Of a stretch of 53,303 nucleotides of DNA, positions 5,758 through 48,777 are shown piece by piece (the stretch's first letter is position 1; every line of letters starts with the position of its first letter). The position numbers and the translations under genes are program-made. The notes below the pieces were generated by a model, which saw only the letters and a program-made list of their open reading frames with translations, searched no databases and was not told where the DNA came from. The DNA is from a virus, in IMG/VR virus record IMGVR_UViG_3300031688_000023, positions 1 through 53,303 of that record, one strand, 5' to 3'.

Positions 5758-8193
5758 ATGAAAGAAGTAACTATAAATATAAAGTCAGCTGTATTTCCAG
5801 ACCAATTTGCTTCGGACTCGGATAAAAAAAGATTAGAATTCGGATTACAAGTTGGCCAAGCTATTCAATACGAATGGTTTAGAAAAGATGGTGGAACTAA
5901 TAGGTTCTACAATCAGTGGACACAATTTAATAGGCTTAGATTATATGCTAGAGGAGAGCAATCTACAGCTAAATATAAAAACGAATTAGCAATTGATGGA
6001 GACTTAAGTTATCTAAACTTAGACTGGTCTCCTATATCAGTTATCCCAAAGTTTGTTGACATCGTTGTAAACGGAATGTCGGACAGATTGTTTAAAGTAA
6101 AAGTTTATGCTGAAGACGCAATGTCAGCTGAAAAAAGAAACAAGTTCCAAAACATGGTGGAAGGACAAATGATTGCAAAGCCTTTATTAAGTCAAATTTC
6201 TAAAGATTTTGGAGTTGATGTTTTTACAGTTCCTGAAGAAACTTTACCTACTGATGACCAGGAGTTAGAGCTATACATGAATATGAAGTTTAAACCAGCT
6301 ATTGAAATTGCTGAAGAAGAAGCTATTAATACTTTATTAGCTGAGAACCATTACGATGATACTAGAAAAAGAGTAGATTTAGATTTAATGGTTTTAGGTA
6401 TTGGAATGACAAGACATCAATTTCAATTAGGACAAGGAGTTAAAATTGATTATGTTGATCCTGCAAATATAGTTTACAGTTATACAGAAGATCCTTACTT
6501 TAAAGATTGTTTTTATTGGGGTGAAATTAAAACTGTAGCAATTACAGAGCTTATAAAAATAGACCCTTCTATTACCAATGACCAACTGGAGGAAATTTCT
6601 AAATACAGTCAGTCATGGTATGATTATTTTAACGTAGCTCAAATGTATCAAAACAGTATGTTTGCTAGAGACACATGTACTTTGTTGTATTTTAATTATA
6701 AAACTACAAATACTTTTGTTTACAAGAAAAAAGAAACAGCTGAAGGAACTTTTAAAACAGTAGAAAAAGACGATCAATTTAATCCTCCACCTGAAATGAT
6801 GGAAGAGGGTAATTTTGAAAGAGTAGAAAAAAGAATTGACGTATGGTATGAAGGTGTAATGGTAATGGGAACAGACATTATATTACAATGGAAAATGATG
6901 GAGAATATGGTTAGACCAAATTCTGCAAATCAATATGCTTTACCAAATTATGTAGCATGTGCGCCTAGAATGTACAAAGGAAGCATAGAGTCTTTAGTTA
7001 GAAGAATGATACCTTTTGCTGATTTAATTCAAATGACTCATTTAAAAATACAACAAGTAGTTTCTAGAGTTGTACCTGACGGTGTCTTTATAGATGCCGA
7101 TGGATTAAATGAAGTAGATTTAGGAACTGGAGCAGCATATAATCCAGAAGATGCATTAAGACTTTATTTTCAAACAGGTAGTGTTGTTGGTAGAAGTTAC
7201 ACAGGTGACGGTGAATTTAATAATGCGAAAATTCCTATTACTCAATTAACTTCTAATAGTGGAGCTAATAAAATGCAAATGCTTATTGGAAACTATAATC
7301 ATTATTTAGATATGATTAGGCAAGTTACTGGATTAAACGAAGCAAGAGATGGTAGTATGCCAGACCCAAATTCTTTAGTAGGAGTTCAAAAGTTAGCAGC
7401 ATTAAATTCTAATACTGCAACAAGACATATTTTACAATCAAGTTTATATATAACTAAAACTTTAGCTGAAGCTCTTTCAATAAGAACAGCTGATATATTA
7501 GAATATTCTGATTTTAAAGATGAGTTTGCTATGCAGATAGGAAAATACAATGTGTCTATTATAGAAGAAATTAAAAACTTATACCTCCATGACTTTGGTA
7601 TATTTATAGAAATGTCTCCTGACGAAGAACAAAAAGCAATGTTAGAACAAAACATTCAAATGGCTTTGTCTAAAGAAAATATTAGTTTAGAAGATGCTAT
7701 AGATATTAGAGAGATAAATAATTTAAAGATGGCTAATCAATTACTAAAAGTAAAAAGAAAAGCTAAACAAGCATCAGAGCAACAGCAAAAACAACAAGAA
7801 CAACAGATGCAAGCTCAAATGCAAATGGAGCAACAACAATCAGCGGCTCAAGCAGCTATGCAACAAGCTCAAGCAGAGCTTCAAGGTAAGATGCAATTAA
7901 AACAAGCTGAGATAGGTTTTGAAATAGAAAAACAAAAAAACGAAGCTGAATTGAAAAAAATGTTAATGGCTGAAGAGTTTGGATATCAAATGCAATTAAA
8001 AGGTATTGAGCAAAGTCAATTAGACGCTAGAGAAAAAAGTAAAGAAGCTTCTAAAGACAAAAGAATTAATCAACAGTCTAGTAATCAATCAAGAATGATT
8101 GAGCAAAGAAAGCGAAACACTCCTTCTATAAATTTTGAATCTAACGAAGATAGTTTAGATGGTTTTGACTTAGCAGAATTTGACCCAAGATAA
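5758..8193 (+). CDS. Portal protein
   Basis: This 811-aa protein follows terminase with no gap. Portal-like features are the VIPKFVDIVVNGM segment (about 100-112), the wing/clip region LMVLGIGMTRHQF with IDYVDPANIVYSYTEDP, and a long central region with GSVVGRS and VTGLNEARDGSMPDPNSLVG. That pattern is shared by portals of crAss-like and Cellulophaga podophages. The C-terminus from about residue 671 is a Gln/Ala/Met-rich coiled coil followed by a charged tail, consistent with the barrel that projects into the capsid. It forms the dodecameric DNA portal at the unique capsid vertex. Confidence 0.85.
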   Translation: MKEVTINIKSAVFPDQFASDSDKKRLEFGLQVGQAIQYEWFRKDGGTNRFYNQWTQFNRLRLYARGEQSTAKYKNELAIDGDLSYLNLDWSPISVIPKFVDIVVNGMSDRLFKVKVYAEDAMSAEKRNKFQNMVEGQMIAKPLLSQISKDFGVDVFTVPEETLPTDDQELELYMNMKFKPAIEIAEEEAINTLLAENHYDDTRKRVDLDLMVLGIGMTRHQFQLGQGVKIDYVDPANIVYSYTEDPYFKDCFYWGEIKTVAITELIKIDPSITNDQLEEISKYSQSWYDYFNVAQMYQNSMFARDTCTLLYFNYKTTNTFVYKKKETAEGTFKTVEKDDQFNPPPEMMEEGNFERVEKRIDVWYEGVMVMGTDIILQWKMMENMVRPNSANQYALPNYVACAPRMYKGSIESLVRRMIPFADLIQMTHLKIQQVVSRVVPDGVFIDADGLNEVDLGTGAAYNPEDALRLYFQTGSVVGRSYTGDGEFNNAKIPITQLTSNSGANKMQMLIGNYNHYLDMIRQVTGLNEARDGSMPDPNSLVGVQKLAALNSNTATRHILQSSLYITKTLAEALSIRTADILEYSDFKDEFAMQIGKYNVSIIEEIKNLYLHDFGIFIEMSPDEEQKAMLEQNIQMALSKENISLEDAIDIREINNLKMANQLLKVKRKAKQASEQQQKQQEQQMQAQMQMEQQQSAAQAAMQQAQAELQGKMQLKQAEIGFEIEKQKNEAELKKMLMAEEFGYQMQLKGIEQSQLDAREKSKEASKDKRINQQSSNQSRMIEQRKRNTPSINFESNEDSLDGFDLAEFDPR

Positions 8194-43554: not shown

Positions 43555-43622
43555 TAAATTTGATTTAAATAAAAGAGGTAGATAGACAATAATAAAATTA
43601 AAGGATGTCTTTGAACACCCAT
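43554..43622 (-). CDS. Candidate leader peptide, 22 aa
   Basis: Minus-strand ORF MGVQRHPLILLLSIYLFYLN... ending QI-stop, hydrophobic and Leu/Ile-rich. It lies between the promoter at 43,684 and the 73-aa gene and ends in a TAATG overlap with that gene's start. Half of a long inverted repeat (43,571-43,585) is inside it. The arrangement is what a translational or attenuation leader would look like; no experimental homologue is known to me. Confidence 0.35.
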   Translation of the reverse strand: MGVQRHPLILLLSIYLFYLNQI

Positions 43623-43659
43623 AAAGTTAAGTGGGATTGTCCCCCTATCTACCTCTTTT
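43571..43659. terminator. Perfect 15-bp inverted repeat, possible bidirectional attenuator
   Basis: AAAAGAGGTAGATAG (43,571-43,585) is the exact reverse complement of CTATCTACCTCTTTT (43,645-43,659), with a further inner pairing GACAAT/ATTGTC (43,585-43,590 with 43,636-43,641). On either strand the 3' arm ends in CTCTTTT(T), so it could fold as a large hairpin followed by U's. It lies in the 5' leader of the minus-strand transcript starting near 43,680. Confidence 0.6.
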
Positions 43660-43683
43660 TGTTAACAATACTAATAACTAATG

Positions 43684-44843: not shown

Positions 44844-44856
44844 AATTTACGTATTG

Positions 44857-44907
44857 GTTAGTAACACGAAATCCCCACTACTTTCGCAGTGAGGCACGTG
44901 TACTAAC
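44857..44907 (-). ncRNA. Structured 5'-UTR element, family R copy 1
   Basis: On the minus strand: outer stem GTTAGTA-CACG/CGTG-TTACTAAC (one bulged A), inner stem CCTCACT/AGTGGGG with loop GCGAAAGT. It lies between the methyltransferase stop and the 59-aa gene. Two relatives at 45,701 and 46,674 keep the inner stem and the flank TACTAACC but change the outer stem in both arms. Confidence 0.65.
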
Positions 44908-45680: not shown

Positions 45681-45700
45681 AATAATTTACGTGTTGGTTA

Positions 45701-45742
45701 GTACCACCAAAACCCCACTACTTTCGCAGTGAGGTAATGGTA
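45701..45742 (-). ncRNA. Structured 5'-UTR element, family R copy 2
   Basis: On the minus strand CCTCACT GCGAAAGT AGTGGGG is enclosed by TACCATTA / GGTGGTA-type pairing (different bases from copy 1, still paired, with two G.T wobbles) and followed by TACTAACCAACACG. It begins about 18 nt after the stop of the upstream gene and ends about 20 nt before the methyltransferase ATG. Confidence 0.65.
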
Positions 45743-45760
45743 GAATCAAAACAAGTTTCT

Positions 45761-46657: not shown

Positions 46658-46673
46658 AATATTATTTATTGGT

Positions 46674-46720
46674 TAGTACCACGAAAACCCCACTACGTTT
46701 TATAGTAGTGAGGTGTGGTG
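46674..46720 (-). ncRNA. Structured 5'-UTR element, family R copy 3
   Basis: On the minus strand ACCAC/GTGGT outer pairing and CCTCACTAC/GTAGTGGGG inner stem (9 bp), followed by TACTAACCAATA. It begins directly at the stop codon of the 38-aa gene (46,721-46,723). The loop differs completely from copies 1 and 2 while the stem is kept. Confidence 0.65.
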
Positions 46721-46837: not shown

Positions 46838-47112
46838 AAGTGACTACCTCTCTCTTTAATATCATCTTCTATCTCATCATAGAAAACATCTAGTTTATCT
46901 GTCATATCATCTCCGTTAAGTATGATTTTATGTATCTCAATAAAATCTCCACCTTCATCAAGATGTGTGGTTGGTTCTTTCCAAAAGTCATAGCTAATTT
47001 CTAGCACGTTATTATCTGACAAGTCCCAATAGTGTACATAACTCTGTGGTGTCATAGTAGTTTTTTTAGTGATTAATAATTTACATTCTTCTAAATACTC
47101 TGCTAAATTCAT
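46834..47112 (-). CDS. Hypothetical acidic protein, 92 aa
   Basis: Acidic alpha/beta protein (LAEYLEECKLLITKKTTM, NVLEISYDFWKEPTTHLD, IHKIILNGDDMTDKLDVFYD). Overlaps the 68-aa gene by 4 nt (ATGA-type) and the 38-aa membrane protein gene by 4 nt. No family recognised. Confidence 0.5.
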   Translation of the reverse strand: MNLAEYLEECKLLITKKTTMTPQSYVHYWDLSDNNVLEISYDFWKEPTTHLDEGGDFIEIHKIILNGDDMTDKLDVFYDEIEDDIKERGSHL

Positions 47113-47315
47113 ATTGTATATTGTGTTACGAAATCAGACAATCCTTTAAATCCTACGAACTTTAAAGACTTCTGTATTTCAGTTGGACATTTGATTGTAG
47201 GTATGTTCTCATACTTGTCAATCATTATTAACTCTTGAGTTTGCTTTGCTAGTCCTTCAGAGTTGCTCTGAGAATAGACTGGTAGCCCTTCTACCAATTG
47301 TTGTACTAAATTCAT
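47109..47315 (-). CDS. Hypothetical protein, 68 aa, behind a hammerhead ribozyme
   Basis: Small protein (LVQQLVEGLPVYSQSNSEGL, MIDKYENIPTIKCPTEIQKS, LKFVGFKGLSDFVTQYTI). The hammerhead ribozyme at 47,331-47,384 lies directly upstream; cleavage would leave a 21-nt leader before this ATG. No family recognised. 4-nt overlap with the next gene. Confidence 0.5.
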   Translation of the reverse strand: MNLVQQLVEGLPVYSQSNSEGLAKQTQELIMIDKYENIPTIKCPTEIQKSLKFVGFKGLSDFVTQYTI

Positions 47316-47330
47316 ATCTTATAATGTTTT

Positions 47331-47384
47331 GATTAAGACTAGCATCTCTGCTAGTTTCGGATATTGAATCCTCTTCAGTTAATC
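47331..47384 (-). ncRNA. Hammerhead ribozyme 1 (type I)
   Basis: Read on the minus strand, the 54 nt parse completely: stem I GATTAA / TTAATC; core CTGAAGA (CUGANGA); stem II GGAT-TCAAT-ATCC; GAA; stem III ACTAGCA-GAGA-TGCTAGT; cleavage-site C (complement of 47,337). All invariant core bases are present. Stem I is open, so this is a type I hammerhead. Cleavage is expected between 47,337 and 47,336, giving a new 5' end 21 nt before the ATG at 47,315. The stop codon of the upstream gene (47,381-47,379) forms part of stem I. Confidence 0.9.
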
Positions 47385-47789
47385 TTCATCTTCATACTCT
47401 ACATACTCTATGTCAAAGTGGTCACATAGTCTTTCTTTATATTCTCCATCATCCATCCACATTTCTTCTAATGCTTCTAAGATGTCCTCATCCATTTGTA
47501 TGATAGTATCTGTCTCTACATTAAGAATGTAGTTTTGTCCCTCAAAGAATTCCCATAAGGCATCGTAAAGCGAGTAGTCATCTAGATATACATTCTCTGA
47601 TATATTTAGTGCGACTCCACTCTCTTTTAATGTATACATAGTACTTCCACAGGCAGAGTCCTCTGATTGAATATAGTAATCAGCAGTAGCACTCCAGTTG
47701 TCTTGAATTTTTATGTTAACATATTCGTATAAGAAATTTTTAAGTGTTACTGATTCTTTAGCAACACACGTTCCATTTGATTTTTTCAT
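47379..47789 (-). CDS. Hypothetical acidic protein, 136 aa
   Basis: Very acidic (many Asp/Glu; ends EYVEYEDED) with aromatic-rich beta segments (FLYEYVNIKIQDNWSATADY, GVALNISENVYLDDY). DNA-mimic-like acidity is notable, but no specific anti-defence family is recognised. Its TAA lies inside stem I of hammerhead ribozyme 1, so ribosomes terminating here would occupy the ribozyme. 10 nt downstream of the 100-aa gene. Confidence 0.5.
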   Translation of the reverse strand: MKKSNGTCVAKESVTLKNFLYEYVNIKIQDNWSATADYYIQSEDSACGSTMYTLKESGVALNISENVYLDDYSLYDALWEFFEGQNYILNVETDTIIQMDEDILEALEEMWMDDGEYKERLCDHFDIEYVEYEDED

Positions 47790-47799
47790 AATTGATATT

Positions 47800-48102
47800 T
47801 TATTTATTAGTATTATTTAGTTTGTCAAGTAACTCATCTGCATTTGTCGTGTCAATTACTTCTTCGTTAAGCATTGGTAAGTTTCCCCAAATTCCGATTG
47901 CTTGACATTCTGCTAGTATATCGGTACACGATTCTTTTATTAATTCTGTATCATACTTTTCATCATCCTCTAGGCCATCATTGATGTCTTGTACATCGTA
48001 CATCTGTAAGTCTAGATTGTGTGCGATAATCTGTACTTGTTCTACAGTTAGTTCTAGGGTTACCATATTATGAAATACCCTGCTTTTCTTAATTGTTATC
48101 AT
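47800..48102 (-). CDS. Hypothetical acidic protein, 100 aa, behind a hammerhead ribozyme
   Basis: Acidic helical protein (VTLELTVEQVQIIAHNLDLQ, NDGLEDDEKYDTELIKESC, ending DELLDKLNNTNK). Hammerhead ribozyme 2 lies upstream; cleavage would leave a 22-nt AU-rich leader before the ATG at 48,102. Family not recognised. Confidence 0.5.
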   Translation of the reverse strand: MITIKKSRVFHNMVTLELTVEQVQIIAHNLDLQMYDVQDINDGLEDDEKYDTELIKESCTDILAECQAIGIWGNLPMLNEEVIDTTNADELLDKLNNTNK

Positions 48103-48118
48103 CTTATTTATTTGTTTT

Positions 48119-48203
48119 GATTAGGACTAGAGCCTCAAACTGTTACAATGGCCAATTGCGTTTGCGACTCTAGTTTCGGATATTAAATCCTCATCAGCTA
48201 ATC
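48119..48203 (-). ncRNA. Hammerhead ribozyme 2 (type I, extended stem III)
   Basis: Read on the minus strand: stem I GATTAG / CTAATC; core CTGATGA; stem II GGAT-TTAAT-ATCC; GAA; stem III ACTAGAG / CTCTAGT, continued by CAAAC/GTTTG and CAAT/ATTG helices in the apical part; cleavage-site C (complement of 48,125). Every invariant hammerhead position is intact. Cleavage between 48,125 and 48,124 gives a 5' end 22 nt before the ATG at 48,102. The stop codon of the upstream gene (48,206-48,204) directly abuts stem I. Confidence 0.9.
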
Positions 48204-48458
48204 TTACATACTATAGAAGACAAAGGACTCTCCTCCTTTACCAAAGTCCATCTCGTGTCTCTGTAACCCTGTACCTCTACCTCCTTTAATGTCACACGTT
48301 GTAACCTTTACACTCACTCCATCCTTTAAATCCTTTACCTCACTCCATTCTCCCATCTGCACCAATCTACTCTTGTAGTATGCTGCCTTACTCGATAGAT
48401 TGTTCTCTATCGCATTGTCGTATCTCTCTTTGAAATACACTGCTTTTGGTTTTCTCAT
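48204..48458 (-). CDS. Hypothetical basic protein, 84 aa, first gene of the early operon
   Basis: Basic N-terminal half (RKPKAVYFKERYDNAIENN, SKAAYYKSRLVQMG) resembling a short helical DNA/RNA-binding segment, then a beta half with VSVKVTTCDIKGGRGTGLQR. The family is not recognised. It is the first gene after the promoter at 48,770 and after hammerhead ribozyme 3, and is followed immediately by hammerhead ribozyme 2. Confidence 0.5.
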   Translation of the reverse strand: MRKPKAVYFKERYDNAIENNLSSKAAYYKSRLVQMGEWSEVKDLKDGVSVKVTTCDIKGGRGTGLQRHEMDFGKGGESFVFYSM

Positions 48459-48527
48459 CTTGTTGTTGTTATTGATTAATTTCTCCTGATCAATTTCTGT
48501 CTGTACTTACCCTCTACTCTAGTATTT

Positions 48528-48580
48528 GATAGTTTCGGATACAAAATCCTCATCAGCTAACCTATATGGTTAGGACTATC
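48528..48580 (-). ncRNA. Hammerhead ribozyme 3 (type III topology)
   Basis: On the minus strand: stem III strand GATAGT, cleavage-site C (complement of 48,574), stem I hairpin CTAACC-ATATA-GGTTAG, core CTGATGA, stem II GGAT-TTTGT-ATCC, GAA, stem III strand ACTATC. This is the circular permutation of ribozymes 1 and 2, with stem III open and stem I closed by a 5-nt loop. All core bases are present. Cleavage between 48,574 and 48,573 would release the upstream leader and leave the ribozyme body on the 5' end of the first early mRNA. Confidence 0.87.
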
Positions 48581-48692
48581 CGAGGAGTATTGCTGACTGC
48601 ATTCATCTTGTTTTTAATGAGGTATAGGTTGCCCTCTCAATATCAGCGTTACTCGTTATGTCAATGTACTGGGTTGTGTTGCTCTGAAGTCC

Positions 48693-48759: not shown

Positions 48760-48769
48760 GAATTCTATG

Positions 48770-48777
48770 CAAATATA
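48770..48777 (-). promoter_or_regulatory. Minus-strand early promoter TATATTTG
   Basis: TATATTTG on the minus strand, identical to the element in front of GroEL at 49,651. It is placed so that transcription would start near 48,763 and run through the three-way-junction RNA, hammerhead ribozyme 3 and the early genes. No convincing -33 TTG is present. Confidence 0.5.

Follow-up and report, generated by a model that had tools for sequence, protein, structure and literature searches.

Serial hammerhead ribozymes in a phage early operon as candidate makers of mRNA ends during ongoing transcription

Three predicted hammerhead ribozymes on the minus strand separate the first genes of the early operon in the viral DNA analyzed here, an IMG/VR record of 53,303 nucleotides that we call the window. 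We propose, with a probability of roughly two in three, that these hammerheads cut the early transcript in cis into end-protected mRNAs of one or two genes without terminating transcription. The proposal is based on the motifs, their geometry, their conservation and a rule that ties ribozyme topology to 3′ hairpins, and from these we infer activity in the cell and a stabilizing effect on the products. The rule, which appears to be new, comes from pattern-selected samples: where a gene ends at a ribozyme cut, a hairpin stands at that end. If the proposal is true, each gene's mRNA gains a terminator-like 3′ end and a defined 5′-OH end while the polymerase reads on. The rule would then give a specific and testable answer on the role of phage hammerheads, namely stable mRNA ends with transcription ongoing.

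The phage and its early operon

Judged by its protein relatives, the phage of the window is podovirus-like, with Bacteroidota as the host group. Its terminase shares 72% identity with podovirus ctfjg026 and 44% with Flavobacterium phage elemoA, and the relatives of its primase fall in the same groups. The early operon runs leftward from about 48.5 kb to 34.4 kb. Its promoter-proximal features, in the direction of transcription, are as follows.

48769..48777, minus strand: promoter-like Bacteroidota −7 box TATATTTGC, a consensus match only
48562..48606, minus strand: putative leader ORF of 14 codons, MNAVSNTPRIVLTI and a stop, from sequence reading
48528..48580, minus strand: third hammerhead, type III, circularly permuted, at the operon head and ahead of the first gene
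48204..48458, minus strand: unit 1 ORF of 84 aa without a family match, ending directly before stem I of hammerhead B
48119..48203, minus strand: hammerhead B, type I, between ORF 48458-48204 and ORF 48102-47800
47800..48102, minus strand: ORF a of unit 2, 100 aa, no family match
47379..47789, minus strand: ORF b of unit 2, 136 aa, with orthologues in the phage loci L043 and L103
47331..47384, minus strand: hammerhead A, type I, between ORF 47789-47379 and ORF 47315-47109
47109..47315, minus strand: first ORF of unit 3, 68 aa, starting 21 nt past cut A

The −7 box would set the start of a leader of about 190 nt whose end is the type III cut. Translation of the putative leader ORF would cross the type III ribozyme from stem III over the cut site into stem I, with its stop at loop I/stem I. 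Scans of the small proteins flanked by hammerheads with PADLOC, Pfam and PHROG returned nothing informative.

Three predicted hammerheads in the window

Our finder, which looks for the core, stems of at least 3-4 bp and a UH cut site, returned three complete hammerheads in the window. Across 200 order-2 Markov simulations, the mean was 0.09 and no simulation gave more than 1. All three sites carry the core CUGANGA ... GAA, A15.1-U16.1 and a predicted cut after UH, with stems I/II/III of 6/4/7, 6/4/9 and 6/4/6 bp. Hammerheads A and B are type I (open at stem I), and the third is type III (open at stem III).

At site A, the 5′ strand of stem I is GATTAA (47384-47379), and its last three letters are the stop codon TAA (47381-47379). 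Next comes the core CTGAAGA at 47378; stem II reads GGAT-TCAAT-ATCC, and the 7-bp stem III is closed by a GAGA tetraloop. The predicted cut after C47337 (47337/47336) leaves a leader of 21 nt to the ATG at 47315. At site B, the TAA at 48206-48204 adjoins stem I (48203-48198), the core CTGATGA lies at 48197, stem III has at least 9 bp, and the predicted cut after C48125 (48125/48124) leaves 22 nt to the ATG at 48102. Checked on the minus strand, these positions bear out what the initial annotation had said of the two stops, the cut sites and the leaders of 21-22 nt. It had also claimed nearly common 5′ ends for the cleaved mRNAs, and the downstream products do begin alike, with TTAATCAAAACA... 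at A and CTAATCAAAACA... at B; much of this common part comes from the ribozyme itself, as its stem I 3′ strand and its conserved AA.

The type III site (48580-48528) reads GATAGTC^CTAACC-ATATA-GGTTAG-CTGATGA-GGAT-TTTGT-ATCC-GAA-ACTATC. Its predicted cut after C48574 (48574/48573) would leave the first mRNA with the core as its 5′ terminus.

Performing folding predictions, we found that the minimum free energy (MFE) structures of A and B are the exact hammerhead structure, with z scores of −3.4 and −2.6, respectively. Folded by itself, the 53-mer of the type III site has the active fold as its MFE structure (−12.4 kcal/mol); once 3 nt of flank are added at both ends, another fold competes and becomes the MFE structure. 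The type III loops of the window (loop I ATATA, loop II UUUGU) are atypical compared with other type III sites.

None of the three hammerheads was matched by Rfam on the window, either at gathering or at E ≤ 10, and the calls therefore rest on the core consensus, the three helices and comparative evidence. Matching an Rfam model helps to detect hammerheads and does not define them. Allowing one core mismatch gave no convincing further or degenerate site in the window, and the ribozymes are not among the sites listed by a terminator scan of it. The same three hammerheads are present in four near-identical IMG/VR contigs.

Hammerheads in other phages

For comparison, a type I sample was drawn from IMG/VR by core and stem II alone, which makes it pattern-selected and of one stem II type. 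A second pattern scan gave the type III sample, of one loop I type. Together, they hold about 240 type I and 86 type III phage hammerheads among the matches listed; gene calls are mechanical and the sequences are related, though grouped tests agree. The loose type III finder yields 1-5 spurious sites per 1.2 Mb in block shuffles, and the type III statistics therefore count only sites whose stems I and III have 5 bp or more.

Among the matches listed, 125 distinct core and stem II sites had enough flank. Stems I and III were correctly placed at 119 of them, vs 19 of 503 control flanks taken from 700-900 nt away. The ribozymes lie almost always in the sense orientation (114:1 among the matches listed, or 114/115), and the next ATG lies 18-40 nt past the cut in about nine of ten listed cases. 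Features outside the finder criteria are conserved as well: A-7 (96%), A+7 (96%) and the closing G-C (93%) among the matches listed, and in listed type I sites the loop II pattern U-N-A-N-U (98/88/91%), together with a stem I of exactly 6 bp. This conservation suggests a fixed contact between loop II and stem I. The type I sites of the window carry the whole pattern of A-7, G-C, A+7 and U-N-A-N-U, and its type III site carries all of it except A3 of loop II.

We also searched 80 relatives chosen by their primase, blind to ribozymes. All 29 finder sites in them lie on the sense strand, and the finder returned 0 sites in the reversed sequence. Arrays are widespread in IMG/VR phages, the richest having 12 type I hammerheads in an 11-kb locus; L107, L098 and L043 have nine, seven and six, respectively. 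Such sense-strand arrays, with an ATG 18-40 nt past the cut, support the initial annotation's proposal of serial ribozymes that would cut a polycistronic early RNA into units with defined ends.

In GTDB genomes, the commonest core plus stem II had a single match, on a 5.8-kb contig of an Aliivibrio MAG; for that stem II, the ribozyme is therefore mostly not a feature of the sampled bacterial chromosomes. Among cultured relatives, the scanned parts of Manatee Spring podovirus MW202828, Tenacibaculum JQ, filifjonk9-1, Leef_1 and Pelagibacter HTVC115P held no hammerhead. Rfam models RF00008 and RF00163 at gathering found no hammerhead in five hammerhead-bearing loci, and in the relative L288 the Hammerhead_3 match scored 45.1 bits (E = 1e-8) against a cut-off of 48.5. 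Rfam misses many phage hammerheads, which are probably under-annotated.

In L112, around position 6490 (minus strand), two type I hammerheads flank one gene and have matching stem III sequences, so that a strand swap between the ribozymes is possible.

Ribozyme topology and 3′ hairpins

A type I core stays with the upstream mRNA, which ends in the ribozyme's own stem III hairpin; a type III core goes with the downstream RNA. Among the matches listed, a perfect hairpin abuts stem III in 59 of the 86 type III sites, 48 times without a gap. The background is 8% in shuffles, and such hairpins stand upstream of just 6 of 240 listed type I sites. The type III hairpin tracks what lies upstream: it is present at 53/59 listed sites with a gene ending at most 70 nt upstream vs 2/20 without one (p = 8e-11). 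Clustering the listed sites by shared neighbor proteins into 39 groups, we obtained 20/21 vs 2/18 (p = 6e-8).

Most of these hairpins begin 4-11 nt past the stop codon, and the cut leaves a tail of 6-7 nt. In this, the type III products would share with intrinsic terminators a hairpin and short tail at the mRNA 3′ end. They differ from terminators in that the hairpins have no U-run (at least 5 T in 8 nt follow only 2% among the matches listed) and in that the end would be made by cutting while transcription continues. Stem III is longer in type I than in type III (p = 2e-15, matches listed), and the four-nucleotide stem III loops of type I are GNRA or UNCG in 92 of 128 listed cases. Type I would need no added hairpin because its own stem III already serves the upstream product as a 3′ hairpin. 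The window conforms to the rule: at its type I sites, stem III would close the coding RNA, and its type III site, which has no gene upstream, has no dedicated hairpin, as the rule predicts.

A reading to which we give somewhat less than an even chance is compaction alone, under which the ribozymes cut, the positions of stops and starts have no regulatory meaning, and genes that lose their stop end inside the ribozyme. It draws on stop codons that are built into type I ribozymes in up to three frames (all three in 30% of listed type I sites vs 7% of shuffles) and on leaders of about the minimum length for ribosome binding. However, it leaves unexplained why a type III ribozyme has a dedicated hairpin only if a gene ends upstream of it.

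The hairpin might instead aid folding of the type III ribozyme by stacking coaxially on a short stem III, with no part in protecting the upstream RNA. The gap of 0 nt in 48 of the 59 listed hairpins and a type III stem III with a median of only 5 bp are what such stacking would call for. Yet type III ribozymes without an upstream gene have an equally short stem III, and just 2/20 listed ones have the hairpin, which makes a folding aid unlikely.

Stop codons at the ribozyme boundary

Among the matches listed, 194 type I clusters have an upstream gene, whose stop overlaps stem I or the core in 95, abuts stem I in 19, lies within about 20 nt in 47 and is farther away in 33. Stops that overlap the ribozyme or lie within 15 nt of it were found at 229/260 listed type I sites vs 4/96 listed type III sites (p = 2e-52). 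The overlaps peak at TAA in −3..−1, TAG in −8..−6, TGA in CUGA and T[A/G]A in loop II, and these four main peaks fall on stop triplets supplied by the ribozyme consensus, a pattern that compaction would produce even in the absence of regulation. In listed type I sites, a built-in stop is present in frame 1 in 100%, in frame 0 in 78% and in frame 2 in 39%.

ORF 47789-47379 has 34% protein identity with its L043 orthologue. At the boundary that follows this gene in the window, L043 and L103, the 5′ strand of stem I consists of the last codon and the stop (GAT TAA). Across the orthologues, stem II of this boundary changes from GGAT/ATCC to GAAT/ATTC, a compensatory exchange, and stem III is fully replaced with its pairing kept.

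The initial annotation had taken the overlap for a timer, in which terminating ribosomes mask the stem I 5′ strand, so that cutting is delayed on translated messages and occurs on untranslated ones. The overlap itself stands: it is real, general (stops overlap or abut stem I in 114/194 listed type I clusters) and conserved at the orthologous boundary. The timer is possible and is not indicated, because the peaks fall on built-in stops and type III ribozymes, which bound genes likewise, almost never touch a stop (4/96 listed). Stop positions also scatter between −15 and +14, and no one distance is favored. A gene that runs into the ribozyme stops there, and overlap alone is therefore no argument for translational timing. 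We regard it as weak evidence, much of which can follow from the built-in stops, and consider a timer improbable.

Ribozymes in the variable gene region

Most hammerheads of the primase-chosen relatives lie near the promoter, in the variable part of the operon, and hardly any occur among the conserved replication genes. Such a distribution would also suit recombination joints, that is, ribozymes serving as conserved short borders of exchangeable early-gene cassettes with RNA cutting secondary. The same gene has differing neighbors across the ribozyme in relatives, and the three copies in the window show 90% similarity over 34-40 nt, which fits the same idea. However, the helices still pair as their sequence changes, the catalytic core and the tertiary-contact residues are kept, and the topology rule tracks RNA products rather than DNA joints. 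We thus hold recombination as the main role to be a rather slim prospect.

Proposed processing of the early transcript

Hammerhead cleavage leaves a 5′-OH end and a 2′,3′-cyclic phosphate. In bacteria generally, 3′ exonucleases are blocked by a hairpin at the RNA end that leaves just a short tail, and a 5′-OH end escapes decay that depends on a 5′-monophosphate.

In our preferred reading, that of end formation by cutting, the three hammerheads, predicted to be competent, would cut the leftward early transcript in cis. The position of the operon-head type III ribozyme downstream of a promoter-like box, here and in seven other phages, suggests that it trims the leader of the first mRNA: the promoter-proximal non-coding part would be removed and the folded core would become the 5′ end. 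Each of the two type I ribozymes in the gene junctions would stay with its upstream mRNA, which would end in the stem III hairpin and, past it, a single unpaired nucleotide bearing a 2′,3′-cyclic phosphate, and the downstream mRNA would receive a 5′-OH and a short, A-rich leader of 21-22 nt. The products would be mRNAs of one or two genes with ends that resist 3′ exonucleases and 5′-phosphate-dependent endonucleases. RNA polymerase would continue while the ends are made by cutting, and the ribozymes would in this way form terminator-like 3′ ends with transcription not stopped.

A wider reading, for which we see the chances as evenly balanced, is that hammerheads serve many phages as a transcription-independent means of 3′-end formation, with topology set by what lies upstream. 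Type I would be used where its own stem III can cap a coding RNA, or else type III with an added hairpin, and the hairpin-free type III at an operon head would trim the leader.

Comparison with known systems

Perreault et al. 2011 (PMC3088659) described clustered hammerheads that flank genes in phages and prophages, in the sense orientation and of mixed types, and proposed that they divide long phage transcripts into mRNAs the length of an operon or a gene; cleavage was reported for three examples in vitro and one in E. coli (PMC3088659). The initial annotation had known of no described phage operon with serial hammerheads, a claim that these clusters overturn. The serial idea is not new, and processing into units was proposed and partly tested in that work (PMC3088659). 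Like those clusters, the window has at least two sense hammerheads flanking single genes or short blocks. Unlike the main text of that paper, our data include the stop/stem I overlap, leaders of 18-40 nt and the rule that links topology to dedicated 3′ hairpins; further differences are the podovirus-like phage of Bacteroidota and the type III ribozyme that heads its operon (PMC3088659). Terminators, exonucleases and 3′ hairpins in such a role are not discussed in the main text of PMC3088659, and the rule is absent from the literature that we searched, a search without most subscription papers and all preprints.

In the haloviruses HF1/HF2, the hammerhead HHphage lies just upstream of the first early gene, and its cut falls exactly where the 5′ end of the early transcript was mapped, which suggests activity in the cell (PMC3088659). 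HHphage differs from the window in being a single ribozyme with a variant core, in an archaeal virus and with no series. Theta (HDV-like) ribozymes of gut phages (PMC10879173) resemble the window sites as self-cleaving elements of Caudoviricetes with proposed 3′ ends in polycistronic RNA; unlike them, they belong to another ribozyme class and concern tRNA trailers rather than mRNAs. Circular or re-ligated RNAs from ribozyme pairs are very improbable, for although 5′-OH and 2′,3′-cyclic phosphate ends are ligase substrates, neither RNA ligase nor polynucleotide kinase was found among the early proteins scanned (a subset of ORFs), and Perreault et al. (PMC3088659) sought spliced or circular products and detected none.

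Leader RNAs and other structured elements

A TAnnTTTGC box lies 117-204 nt upstream of the operon-head type III cut in the window and in seven other phages, which include the cultured Flavobacterium phage elemoA_7-9A; in the leaders of these seven, the distance is 117-193 nt. With a type III site at the head of its early operon (predicted cut after 19132, minus strand of NC_055852), elemoA_7-9A is a phage in which the prediction is directly testable. Between the box and the operon-head type III ribozyme, several Bacteroidota phages conserve an apparently structured leader RNA.

L337 (Flavobacterium phage elemoA_7-9A) 19132-19310, minus strand: apparently structured leader RNA CGAGACCACAG..GTGGCGGA.., also in L258, L288, L226, L331, L038 and L280

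Rfam gave no match to the leader RNA of this group. The window leader is unrelated to it and of similar length.

A second structured element, E, is repeated in the early operon of the window.

46669-46719, minus strand: element E, first copy (E1)
45694-45743, minus strand: element E, second copy
44854-44907, minus strand: element E, third copy

Each copy consists of P1 (5 bp, with a sequence that varies by copy), a hairpin CCTCACTNC..GTAGTGGGG, NTTTN, P1′, TACTAACCAA, a leader and an ATG, with folding z scores of −4.5 to −5.7. All three stand at gene boundaries where relatives carry hammerheads: past the small ORF before E1 (L043, L103), before the methylase (L043, L103) and after the methylase (L125). 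L123, with a primase 87% identical, has two E elements and no hammerhead. A scan for the element found it only in the window virus, L123/L213 and L212; a further candidate in L214 looks like a chance match. The 3′ part of E resembles the hammerhead 3′ product (CTAACCAA). A hammerhead proper was rejected for E, as the CUGANGA strand is absent; it may be a core-less hammerhead derivative, a terminator or another processing site. A long inverted repeat, AAAAAGAGGTAGATAG..CTATCTACCTCTTTT, occupies an intergenic gap of the early operon at 43560-43660 (minus strand) and is putatively terminator-like or another structured RNA.
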